Shown: in pieces, positions 22,452-25,511 of the stretch
Layout: each line of letters opens with the position of its first letter
How positions within the stretch are numbered: position 1 is the first letter of the stretch
Source: Ghiorsea sp.
Lineage (GTDB): Bacteria > Pseudomonadota > Zetaproteobacteria > Mariprofundales > Mariprofundaceae
Direction: 5' to 3'
Length of the DNA: 42,557 nt
Assembly: GCA_027059605.1 (NCBI GenBank)
Contig: JALSZC010000128.1
Location: 1 to 42,557 of the forward strand
Made by a program: the position numbers and the translations under genes
The notes under the pieces: generated by a model
What the model was told of the DNA's origin: nothing
The model's database searches: none
The model's input: the letters and a program-made list of their open reading frames with translations, nothing else

Positions 22452-22516
22452 GTCATTCCCGCGCAGGCGGGAATCCATGATATATGAAGTGGATTCCCAA
22501 TCAAGTTGGGAATGAC
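22452..22516. repeat. Palindromic repeat upstream of uvrC
   Basis: GTCATTCCCgcgcaggcGGGAATCCAT...GGATTCCCaatcaagttGGGAATGAC, nested hairpins; half-copy at 1130-1155. Confidence 0.7.
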
Positions 22517-22540
22517 AGGGATTTATGATACTTGTTTTAT

Positions 22541-23362
22541 TCATTTAAGTGGTTGGCACCTCGGACAAAAAAAGGATGCTCTGCTACCAAGCACAACCTT
22601 TTCAATCGGGATTTTACAAATCAAACAGGGTTGTTTATCGCGCCCATACACTTTAAAGCTATGCGCGAAATAACCAGGGTTGCCATCGGCTTTGACAAAA
22701 TCGCTAATGGTGCTGCCGCCAGCTTCAATGGCTTCTGCAAGCACAGTTTTGATATGTTGGACTAATAATGCGTATTGTTTGGGTTTCAGGCTGTTCGCCA
22801 CTTGTGTTGGGTTAATACCAGCGCGAAATAAACTTTCTGAGGCATAGATATTACCCACTCCGACAACTACATGATTATCCATGATGGCTTGTTTAATGCT
22901 GGTTTTACGTGTTTTGACTGTGTCATGCAGGTAATTACCGCTAAAATCATCTAAAAGTGGCTCTGCGCCCAATTTAGCGAACCAAGGATGTTGGTCTAAA
23001 TCATTGGTATGACACAAGCCCGCATAACCAAAGCGGCGGGTGTCTCGATAGCGTAATGTATTGTCGTTTGTAAACATGAAGGTGACATGCTCATGTTTTG
23101 CCATCGCTTCATCTTGGCGTAATACATGAAATTGCCCCGTCATACCCAAATGCCAAATTAAGGTTTGTCCATTCTCGAAATGAAACAGTAAATACTTGGC
23201 GCGGCGCTGCACGCTTTGGATGCTTTGTTGCAGCAATGTTGAAAAGTCAGGCAAGGGGTAGCGTAGGTTTTTCCCACTATTAGATACAGACACCAGCTTC
23301 GCGCCTGTAATCTGCGGCCTTAAGCCGACAACTACGGTTTCAACTTCGGGAAGTTCAGGCAT
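22541..23362 (-). CDS. mutM: Formamidopyrimidine-DNA glycosylase
   Basis: MPELPEVETVVVGL N-terminus, VVVGVGNIYASESLF, C-terminal zinc finger CLICKIPIEKVVLGSRASFFCPRCQ. Confidence 0.96.
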   Translation of the reverse strand: MPELPEVETVVVGLRPQITGAKLVSVSNSGKNLRYPLPDFSTLLQQSIQSVQRRAKYLLFHFENGQTLIWHLGMTGQFHVLRQDEAMAKHEHVTFMFTNDNTLRYRDTRRFGYAGLCHTNDLDQHPWFAKLGAEPLLDDFSGNYLHDTVKTRKTSIKQAIMDNHVVVGVGNIYASESLFRAGINPTQVANSLKPKQYALLVQHIKTVLAEAIEAGGSTISDFVKADGNPGYFAHSFKVYGRDKQPCLICKIPIEKVVLGSRASFFCPRCQPLK

Positions 23363-23891
23363 GTTTATCTACCCCGTCAGCCGTTGGCTGCCACCCCTTC
23401 ACAAGCGAAGGGGAATGATGTACGTTGCCTGCGTTGTTATTCCCCTCTTTGAAGAGGGGTGCCCGTAAGGGTGGGGTGTTGGTATAAGACTGGACGATAA
23501 AATCTTCAAATTGTCGCATCACAAGTCCTATATCCTGCTTTACTTGTTTATCTTCAATGCGATACACTAACAATCCCAACCTCTGCAAATAGTTTTGTCT
23601 TGCTTCATCATAAGCACCTTTGGCATCATGACTTTCACCATCAATCTCAATCACCAAACTTAAAGACTTAATGTAAAAGTCTACAATATAATGACCAATG
23701 ATACGTTGCCTATCAAAATCAATGCCATGAAATTTCTTTTGCTGGACTTGCTGCCAAAACAAAACTTCAGATAATACACCCGCTTTGCGCAGAGCCTTGG
23801 CTTTATCTTTAAGCTTTGGGTTGCGGGGTAGGTTGGGCGTTTGGTGCTTGTAAATAGTTTTACCATGGATGGTGTATGTTGTTTGATTCAT
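23355..23891 (-). CDS. DUF559-family (Vsr-like, PD-(D/E)XK) endonuclease domain protein
   Basis: AKALRKAGVLSEVLFWQQVQQKKFHGIDFDRQRIIGHYIVDFYIKSLSLVIEIDGESH; C-terminal tail encoded by a flanking repeat. Confidence 0.88.
   Translation of the reverse strand: MNQTTYTIHGKTIYKHQTPNLPRNPKLKDKAKALRKAGVLSEVLFWQQVQQKKFHGIDFDRQRIIGHYIVDFYIKSLSLVIEIDGESHDAKGAYDEARQNYLQRLGLLVYRIEDKQVKQDIGLVMRQFEDFIVQSYTNTPPLRAPLFKEGNNNAGNVHHSPSLVKGWQPTADGVDKHA
23370..23481. repeat. 112-bp direct repeat, copy A (3' side of DUF559 gene)
   Basis: taccccgtcagccgttggctgccaccccttc...gaagaggggtgcccgtaagggtggggtgttg; about 11 mismatches to copy B by eye. Confidence 0.85.
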
Positions 23892-23899
23892 TCTGAGGC

Positions 23900-24011
23900 T
23901 ACCCCGTTAGCCGTTGGCTGCCACCCCTTCAAACTTGAAGGGGAATGATGTGAATTGTCTGCGTTGTTATTCCCCTCTTTGAAGAGGGGTGCCCGATAGG
24001 GTGGGGTGTTG
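23900..24011. repeat. 112-bp direct repeat, copy B (5' side of DUF559 gene)
   Basis: taccccgttagccgttggctgccaccccttc...gaagaggggtgcccgatagggtggggtgttg; same length and orientation as copy A. Confidence 0.85.
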
Positions 24012-24024
24012 TTTTGTTTAGACA

Positions 24025-24825
24025 TTAATCTTTAAGTGTTGCCAATACAGGGGCATGGTCGGAAAACCAAGAATCCGTATAAACTTCAATCTTCTCAAAC
24101 TTTTTAGCGATTTCAGGCGTGGCAATATGATAATCAATACGCCAGCCCACATTGTTGGCTCTGGCTTGCCCACGGTTGGACCACCACGAATATTGCTCTT
24201 TTTCAGGGTATAAAGTTCTAAATGTGTCCACAAAACCGCTTTCATCTATCAATGCATCCATCCACGCGCGTTCTTCGGGCAAAAAGCCTGAGTTTTTACG
24301 GTTGCCACGCCAGTTTTTTAAATCAATTTCTTTGTGACAGATATTCACATCCGCGCAGAGAATAAGTTCACGGCCTTCATTTTTTAAGCGATTCATCAGA
24401 GGAAGGAAACGCTCTAAAAAGCCCATTTTAATGGCTTGTCGCTCACCCGAGCTTGAGCCAGAAGGAAAATACACGCTCATAATACTTAAATTTCCAAAGT
24501 CAGCCATCACAAAACGACCTTCTGCGTCCATATCGCTCCAATCCACATCAGGGTCAATCGAACCCAAGCCAACATGCACAGCATCGGGTTTAACCCTGGA
24601 ATACAAGGCAACACCTGAATAACCTGGCTTTTCCGCGAAATGATAATAGCGAAAGTAGCCTTCAGGTTTGGCTTCTTCCGGGATTTGCGCTTCCTTGGCT
24701 TTAAGCTCTTGAATGCAAAGCACATCCACATCTTGCGTGGCAAACCAACTCCAAAAACCTTTACGTGTCGCGGCACGAATACCGTTCATATTGATGGTCA
24801 TGATTTTCTTGGGATGTTGTGACAC
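24025..24825 (-). CDS. xthA: Exodeoxyribonuclease III
   Basis: MTINMNGIRAATRKGFWSWFATQDVDVLCIQELKA, YFPSGSSSGERQ, ADVNICH, SDHAPVLATL. Confidence 0.92.
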   Translation of the reverse strand: MSQHPKKIMTINMNGIRAATRKGFWSWFATQDVDVLCIQELKAKEAQIPEEAKPEGYFRYYHFAEKPGYSGVALYSRVKPDAVHVGLGSIDPDVDWSDMDAEGRFVMADFGNLSIMSVYFPSGSSSGERQAIKMGFLERFLPLMNRLKNEGRELILCADVNICHKEIDLKNWRGNRKNSGFLPEERAWMDALIDESGFVDTFRTLYPEKEQYSWWSNRGQARANNVGWRIDYHIATPEIAKKFEKIEVYTDSWFSDHAPVLATLKD

Positions 24826-24884
24826 GATAAAGACCTCTCGTATATATTGTATCTAAGCATCAGTTACATTTAGTATACAAAAAG

Positions 24885-24914
24885 TTGCAAAAAGAAACCT
24901 TTTGTGTGTAGTAT
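24885..24914 (+). promoter_or_regulatory. Putative sigma70-type promoter for the TA pair
   Basis: TTGCAA - 18 nt - TAGTAT upstream of ATG 24944. Confidence 0.35.
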
Positions 24915-24943
24915 GACCCAACTATAAGATACAGGAGCATGTT

Positions 24944-25162
24944 ATGGCAGTTGCAATAAAACTTTCAGATGCCTTGGTGAATGATGCAAGATTGTATGCC
25001 AAAGCACAACACAGAACACCACCCAAACAAATTGAACACTGGGCAAAGCTTGGGAAAATGGCTGAAGAAAACCCAGACTTACCCTTTAATTTTATTCAAG
25101 AAGTGATGTTATCACATGGAGAAGCTGAGCAAGGAGAGCTTGAGCCTTATAAGTTTGGGTAA
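24944..25162 (+). CDS. ParD-like type II antitoxin
   Basis: MAVAIKLSDALVNDARLYAKAQHRTPPKQIEHWAKLGKMAEENPDLP; small, upstream of RelE/ParE-type toxin. Confidence 0.78.
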   Translation: MAVAIKLSDALVNDARLYAKAQHRTPPKQIEHWAKLGKMAEENPDLPFNFIQEVMLSHGEAEQGELEPYKFG

Positions 25163-25175
25163 GTGTTAAATCAGT

Positions 25176-25448
25176 ATGCAGGTTTTACAAACACCACGCT
25201 TTTCGAAACAACTCAAAAAGCTTAAACCAAATCAAAAAATAGCCTTAGATGAAGCTGTAAAGACGATTGTGGATAGCCCTTTGATTGGCACACAAAAATG
25301 TGGTGATTTAAGCTTTTTACGAGTATATAAATTTACGATGCTCAAACAACAGGCTTTGCTAGCTTATACTTACGATGATGAGGAAATTATCATCACCTTG
25401 TTGGCAGTCGGCGCGCATGAAAACTTTTATCGGGATTTGAAAAGATAA
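25176..25448 (+). CDS. RelE/ParE-superfamily toxin
   Basis: LQTPRFSKQLKKLKPNQKIALDEAVKTI...LLAYTYDDEEIIITLLAVGAHENFYRDLKR. Confidence 0.82.
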   Translation: MQVLQTPRFSKQLKKLKPNQKIALDEAVKTIVDSPLIGTQKCGDLSFLRVYKFTMLKQQALLAYTYDDEEIIITLLAVGAHENFYRDLKR

Positions 25449-25511
25449 TATACAGTTTTGCTCTGTTATGGTTATGCCTTTTGTGCACTGTAAGAAGGCT
25501 CCATGGCATCT

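Follow-up and report, generated by a model that had tools for sequence, protein, structure and literature searches.

The window, as we call the whole 42,557-nt stretch of DNA analysed here, comes from a Ghiorsea MAG and carries, between xthA and mutM, a DUF559 gene with a 113-nt direct repeat on either side. DUF559 is a very common protein family whose function is unassigned. The ORF at 23355-23891 on the minus strand matches Pfam DUF559 at 2.5e-26 and 92.1 bits, above the curated cut-off of 20.6, and an alignment with relatives from several phyla revealed that its VDFY and EIDG motifs, which hold catalytic-type residues, are kept. Judged by its sequence, the protein is a DUF559 member and a predicted nuclease of the PD-(D/E)XK, Vsr-like kind; DUF559/YcjD had been assigned to the PD-(D/E)XK superfamily, in the vicinity of Vsr, and a YcjD profile detected Vsr (PMC1189080). 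The only solved sequence relative of the DUF559 domain in the window is PDB 3hrl, an endonuclease-like protein (E 6e-13). Because the ORF runs through one of the repeats (copy A), its C-terminal ~45 residues are repeat-encoded; the domain proper stops near 23508, before this part. The features of the locus are:

22541..23362, minus strand: mutM, encoding Fpg/MutM, which flanks the insertion site on the right and overlaps with the end of the nuclease ORF
23353..23362, minus strand: right copy of the putative target duplication, ATGCCTGAAC, at the mutM start
23355..23891, minus strand: DUF559 nuclease ORF, 178 aa; PF04480 domain at about 23508-23816, C-terminal part read through copy A
23369..23481, no strand: palindrome doublet copy A, between the nuclease gene and mutM, 90% identical to copy B
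23369..23375, minus strand: tail GGGGTAG of the outer half-unit of copy A
23394..23413, no strand: hairpin CCCCTTCACAAGCGAAGGGG (CCCCTTC-N-GAAGGGG) of the outer half-unit of copy A
23442..23459, no strand: hairpin CCCCTCTTTGAAGAGGGG of the copy-A half-unit adjoining the gene
23473..23480, plus strand: tail GGGGTGTT of the gene-adjoining copy-A half-unit, pointing gene-ward
23899..24011, no strand: palindrome doublet copy B, lying between xthA and the start of the nuclease gene and made of two half-units of triplex type in inverted orientation
23899..23905, minus strand: tail GGGGTAG of the gene-adjoining copy-B half-unit, pointing gene-ward; mirror of the arm GAAGGGG with A changed to T
23924..23943, no strand: hairpin CCCCTTCAAACTTGAAGGGG (CCCCTTC-N-GAAGGGG) of the copy-B half-unit adjoining the gene
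23972..23989, no strand: hairpin CCCCTCTTTGAAGAGGGG of the outer half-unit of copy B
24003..24010, plus strand: tail GGGGTGTT of the outer copy-B half-unit; the arm AAGAGGGG mirrored, each A changed to T
24016..24025, minus strand: ATGTCTAAAC, following the stop of xthA, as the left copy of the putative target duplication; 8/10 in the window
24025..24825, minus strand: xthA, encoding an exonuclease III (XthA)-type protein, the left flank of the insertion site

A first-pass annotation of this DNA had described two direct repeats with about 11 mismatches and a period of 530, two hairpins in each (CCCCTTC...GAAGGGG and CCCCTCTTTGAAGAGGGG), and between them a DUF559 gene lying between the exonuclease III gene and mutM, the whole being no classical IS. 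This description was borne out: the repeats, at 23369-23481 and 23899-24011, are the sole long direct-repeat family in 22500-25500 (113 nt, 90% identity, 11 mismatches, start-to-start spacing 530), the genes are as described, all four hairpins lie at the exact positions, and DUF559 is the only gene between the repeats. The direct repetition is thus real; each repeat, however, is no single unit but a doublet of two inverted ~47-nt half-units, as 29 copies from eight Ghiorsea genomes revealed when compared. Half-units are also found alone in the genus. Rfam returned no match for the window and an RNA family reading was dropped, a defence system was rejected on PADLOC matches that were marginal only (best E 0.006), and tblastn against plasmids found only distant DUF559 matches. 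Directly beyond xthA, at 24944-25448, the window encodes a ParD-like antitoxin and ParE-like toxin pair.

In each Ghiorsea unit a hairpin whose 5' arm is polypyrimidine (CCCCTTC or CCCCTCTT) is followed by a second hairpin, which is variable, and then by a G-rich tail. Folded as single-stranded DNA, the two copies in the window are far more stable than their shuffles (z -4.7 and -3.8; none of 200 shuffles was as good). In 16 hand-picked copies, one of them from Bacteroidota, three of the four pairs of the second hairpin carry compensatory changes (7 cells), with a covariation score reached by none of 500 shuffles, and the pairing is thus maintained. The tail reads as the purine arm mirrored, with A either kept or replaced by T (GAAGGGG and GGGGTAG; AAGAGGGG and GGGGTGTT). 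In purine-motif triplexes the triads are G.GC and T.AT or A.AT, and the relation of arm to tail follows, at the level of sequence, the rule predicted for an intrastrand triplex of this motif.

The association of DUF559 with such hairpins extends far beyond Ghiorsea. We surveyed 70 DUF559 loci, drawn widely from Pseudomonadota genomes, and took control genes out of 20-kb stretches of these genomes. At 64 of the 70 loci a hairpin with a polypyrimidine arm is present no farther than 260 nt away, on both sides in 37, versus 3 of 122 control ORFs (p 2e-20 for both-sided hairpins at DUF559 loci versus controls). Only 2 of 70 stretches taken 1 kb away from the same loci hold one, and none of 30 GIY-YIG nuclease genes, a matched small-nuclease control, has one. 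Likewise, a repeat scoring at least 40 is common to the 300 nt on the left and the 300 nt on the right at 46 of 70 DUF559 loci versus 2 of 123 controls, and one scoring at least 50 at 38 of 70 versus 0 of 123. The hairpin is present at 29 of 30 Bacteroidota DUF559 loci, and flanked DUF559 examples occur in Chloroflexota (L009) and Bacillota (L014) too. One of the genomes encountered, the 1-Mb Gracilibacteria genome G302, has six DUF559 matches, each with 3-5 in-frame TGA codons (L012, L161, L164, L169, L174, L176, L177), as expected where a lineage reads TGA as an amino acid.

The units are also oriented. In the hairpin nearest the gene the tail points gene-ward in 97 cases and away in 14 (p 2e-16), and the conserved arrangement is hairpin-tail, gene, tail-hairpin, with the two units inverted. 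The window has this arrangement plus outer half-units, one extra on each side, which give rise to the direct 113-nt repeats. The direct-repeat bracket described by the first-pass annotation is present in the window; across bacteria it is the inverted, gene-adjoining half-units that are conserved instead.

Arm and tail match each other locus by locus. The mean mirror score is 0.82, versus 0.57 (sd 0.014) with arms permuted among loci and 0.42 with the downstream sequence shuffled. Perfect mirror tails number 93 of 146, with A positions taken by A or T about equally; GGAGGGG pairs with GGGGTGG in 20 of 20 cases, and further mirror pairs are GGGAGAAGG with GGATGAGGG and AAAGGGGGA with AGGGGGATT. 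Four loci (L078, L087, L108, and L109) have a ATCTCCCCC-arm hairpin on one side only, an arm type without a perfect mirror tail, which may be derived and may have lost its third strand. Arm type also follows the nuclease: it correlates with the distance between nuclease sequences (Mantel r 0.44, p 0.0005, n 65, host shared ancestry uncorrected; eight DUF559 loci that gave no translation under the motif filter were left out of this test). The closest relatives of the Ghiorsea nuclease found outside the genus are from Bacteroidota (54-62% identity; L178-L187) and come with a Ghiorsea-type unit, that of L178 reading CCCCTTC..GAAGGGGTGGCAG..CTGACGGGGTAG; because of this cross-phylum case, mere co-inheritance is disfavoured.

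The presence of the nuclease goes along with the number of units in the genome. Across 299 Pseudomonadota genomes, in which copies were counted by genome searches, three or more CCCTCTCCC-loop-GGGAGAGGG hairpins are present in 47 of the 79 that have a strong DUF559 match, as opposed to 13 of the 220 that lack such a match (odds ratio 23, p 6e-22), a link that holds when stratified by family (odds ratio 22, p 3e-6). DUF559 genomes contain 2637 of the 3042 CCCTCTCCC hairpin copies, and the reversed control pattern is almost absent from the same genomes. The 13 genomes that keep at least three hairpins without a strong DUF559 match, one of them with 107 and some of them incomplete assemblies, mean that the link to DUF559 is not absolute and that copies can persist or arise without it.

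The xthA-mutM junction itself is polymorphic within the genus, where the relatives compared are MAGs. Its 14 alleles fall into three states: the DUF559 cassette in four (G000, which is the genome of the window, G003:C45, G004:C307, and G005:C37), an empty junction in four (G013, G014, G015, and G003:C92), and a two-gene ccdA-ccdB pair in six (G001, G002, G006, G007, G008, and G012; Pfam CcdA and CcdB matched the G007 copy). In the empty junctions the xthA stop and the mutM start overlap (TTAATGCCTGAAC and close variants), and these alleles are without any palindrome, which implies that the whole repeat-nuclease-repeat arrived at xthA-mutM. They also rule out a conserved xthA-nuclease-mutM operon. 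In a mutM tree the filled alleles of G000, G003:C45, and G004 form one clade beside empty ones, and that of G005 stands apart. On the G003 contigs C45, C51, and C92 xthA is present three times, once at a filled junction and once at an empty one, and this MAG is probably a strain mixture.

In the G004 allele (L062), the insert has ATGCCTGAAC on either side as a perfect duplication (10/10), of which one copy continues xthA and the other starts mutM. This perfect 10-bp putative target duplication was seen at no other locus, and the window has a degenerate form of it (8/10); its sequence fits an insertion by a staggered cut that would have left mutM intact. Compared with the window, the G004 nuclease is ~70% identical and the upstream repeat 96% identical, a contrast that could stem from fast divergence or from an exchange of the central gene while the repeats around it were conserved.

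As for the repeat elsewhere, a search of the genome and its relatives, proposed by the first-pass annotation, found the 113-nt repeat at this locus only in its own genome, and in other Ghiorsea species both as repeat-DUF559-repeat and as solo copies. Together with the empty alleles, this goes against the refuting case named by the annotation, in which the repeats would be confined to this locus and the gene order conserved without empty sites, and it supports the self-contained, moving nuclease-plus-repeat cassette that the annotation had suggested; its accompanying idea of excision by recombination between the repeats found no counterpart, as none of the 14 alleles has a single repeat. A solo element at another Ghiorsea locus (L033) is present in G005, G004, and G013 and absent or replaced in others, with flanks too diverged for a duplication to be read.

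The units belong with a repeat class known from E. coli, the BoxC/PIT/TM-ECO intrastrand triplex motif, with which the CCCTCTCCC type is identical. This motif was described in more than 260 genomes, and the E. coli form makes a triplex in vitro by CD and NMR (Holder et al., 2015; PMC4666352). According to that study, no mobility activity was found beside the motifs, and YcjD and DUF559 go unmentioned there (PMC4666352). Such a unit adjoins E. coli ycjD, annotated as DUF559, and its other strand is, letter for letter, entry 9 of the MG1655 table (PMC4666352). The Ghiorsea units resemble BoxC/PIT/TM-ECO in having a polypyrimidine arm, a polypurine arm and a G-rich third strand mirroring the purine arm, and in being intergenic, dispersed and arranged as inverted doublets; the E. 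coli motif is polymorphic among strains. All four hairpins of the window have the polypyrimidine 5' arm and polypurine 3' arm, and the tails GGGGTAG and GGGGTGTT have the form of the third strand. The short loop of 1-6 nt is absent: between arm and third strand, Ghiorsea, like Bacteroidota, has a second hairpin, of ~13-18 nt in Ghiorsea, and because of this longer connection we class the Ghiorsea palindromes as a variant of the triplex motif, triplex-capable by sequence. Beyond the BoxC/PIT/TM description, the unit is here tied to DUF559 and its arm types are widened to CCCCTTC, CCCCTCC, CCTTCTCCC, and CCCCCTTT.

Other reports touch on the same ground. For Enterobacter sp. 638, 100 copies were reported (PMC2869309), and in a study of Legionella evolution a transposase/DUF559 segment is a recombination hotspot (PMC12308824). 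Our literature search, with subscription journals and preprints outside its scope, found no paper tying DUF559 to palindromes or triplex motifs; given this partial coverage, the link may have been noted before. Within E. coli, fabI-sapF was rejected as a clean empty site, the region without ycjD carrying a different operon. At yiiM-cpxA the element is present in 156 of 5426 genomes (query covered at least 80%), and three strains with another allele have a GTAG-type REP in its place; at alx-sstT a triplex-motif doublet alternates with a single chimeric hairpin, 75 nt shorter (L258, L265, and L268). We take both as polymorphism only and not as proof of insertion, the alx-sstT difference being equally readable as a deletion between arms.

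In their layout the elements resemble REPIN/RAYT systems, with inverted palindrome doublets dispersed in many enzyme-free copies, an enzyme gene flanked by the same palindromes and a pairing of enzyme with repeat. The enzyme differs, being a PD-(D/E)XK nuclease here and an HUH (Y1) transposase of IS200/IS605-like type in RAYTs, as do the tail, here a predicted triplex third strand, and the apparent 10-bp target duplication at one locus. The tags differ as well: RAYT-associated REPs carry GTAG (PMC3733652), and in the Ghiorsea units GTAG is not 5' of the stem, nor does CGTC stand at its foot, the unpaired ends being GGGGTAG and GGGGTGTT. Because both the defining enzyme and the tag are wanting, we keep the element out of the REPIN/RAYT class. 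With nothing but the DUF559 nuclease between the repeats and no transposase, it is not a classical IS or MITE either. That a RAYT or other IS200/IS605-type transposase moves the palindromes, with DUF559 genes merely carried between them, could draw on the Y1 transposase genes present in 14 of 16 genus genomes; we consider it very unlikely, as the enrichment is particular to DUF559, with none around GIY-YIG genes, and DUF559 units are without the GTAG tag. The six Y1 loci of the genus that we looked at have no polypyrimidine hairpin in their flanks, which further disfavours movement by RAYTs. G005 stands out with 12 matches to Y1 (IS200-type) transposases, several of them broken, versus 0-3 in sister genomes.

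Homing endonucleases are found among Vsr-like nucleases, and the nuclease could therefore cut pre-existing solo palindromes, its cassette then being copied in by double-strand-break repair, with the repeats as targets. Nuclease-free solo units are indeed common, and the direct doublets that the window has at both sides are the relic expected of insertion into a doublet. The element shares its nuclease superfamily with Vsr-like homing endonucleases and E. coli Vsr; it differs from the former in having no intron or intein, no split host gene and palindrome-free empty sites. It is these empty alleles that disfavour homing, in which a gene splits its own cleavage site; moreover, the conserved layout of inverted units with tails inward contains no split site, and homing alone leaves the origin of hundreds of solo copies unexplained, so that we regard it as unlikely. 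Somewhat less likely still is a housekeeping or stress enzyme for the removal or repair of triplex or hairpin DNA or of 5mC-derived mismatches, beside which the adjoining palindromes would be regulatory (terminator, autoregulation) and the rest coincidence. Such a role would suit Caulobacter VsrA, a DUF559 protein that acts with a solitary cytosine methyltransferase and is linked to DNA damage (PMC12907096), and hairpins at gene ends can be terminators. It does not sit well with hundreds of units far from the nuclease yet enriched in nuclease genomes, with presence/absence polymorphism at xthA-mutM, with co-occurrence of nuclease and unit type across phyla, or with units on both flanks with their tails inward; the inward tails on both sides and the dispersed copies rule out a terminator-only role. 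Chance repetition, or low-complexity likeness of intergenic palindromes around a stable gene, is hardly credible: short palindromes are common in intergenic DNA, but same-genome controls give 2-3%, and the permutation and orientation tests contradict it.

We consider it fairly probable that the window cassette is a member of a widespread two-part element, in which a DUF559 nuclease is bracketed by cognate triplex-capable palindromes and would drive their spread. From the observed pairing, orientation, structure, covariation, copy-number association and site polymorphism we infer that the nuclease spreads the palindromes. The nuclease would recognise the folded unit, as a hairpin or an intrastrand triplex, when it is exposed in replication or transcription, and would introduce a nick or cut at the unit or beside it. 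Once the freed ends were repaired or re-joined, the unit, or the whole cassette of unit, nuclease and unit, would sit at an intergenic position new to it, which would gain a short target duplication. The outcome would be like that of REPIN/RAYT, with another enzyme and another DNA structure. Small nucleases of the PD-(D/E)XK superfamily normally cut DNA and do not join it, so re-joining by host repair must be assumed. More tentatively, and with confidence a little short of even, we propose that DUF559 proteins are enzymes dedicated to mobilising triplex palindromes of one superfamily, found bacteria-wide and comprising BoxC/PIT/TM and relatives: a Vsr-like nuclease, in place of a transposase, would act on an intrastrand triplex and spread itself along with hundreds of non-coding copies.

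In E. coli, repeats of the BoxC type have been on record since the 1990s; hundreds of genomes contain them, and the regions that they mark are unstable. To our knowledge, no enzyme has been tied to them so far, and the most complete study is the one that saw no mobility activity next to them (PMC4666352). Our results point to the DUF559 nuclease as the missing partner that may spread this long-known, unexplained class of bacterial repeats. Should nuclease and repeats belong together, both puzzles would become directly testable in E. coli K-12, where one motif adjoins ycjD. It would also mean that a nuclease of a repair/restriction superfamily can fill the role that RAYT transposases have for REPs, and that what is recognised in a mobile element can be a non-B DNA structure.

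A different palindrome family also occurs in the window. CGTC-tagged REPs (dRS3-type) are dispersed palindromes described as having no dedicated transposase (Di Nocera, 2013; PMC3733652), and they differ from the DUF559 units in sequence and in having no third strand. In the window, CGTC-type REPs (GTCATTCCC..GGGAATCCA) form an inverted doublet at 22456-22512, just upstream of uvrC and partly read into an N-terminal extension of the uvrC ORF, and a single copy lies at 1134-1151, near the window start. CGTC REPs were found at 2 of 30 GIY-YIG loci and at 0 of 69 DUF559 loci. Seven of the 30 small GIY-YIG genes are flanked by other palindromic repeats (L239, L240, L228, L231, L244, L245, and L249), two by CGTC REPs on both sides, and GIY-YIG may be a second nuclease family of this kind, as the partner of CGTC REPs.
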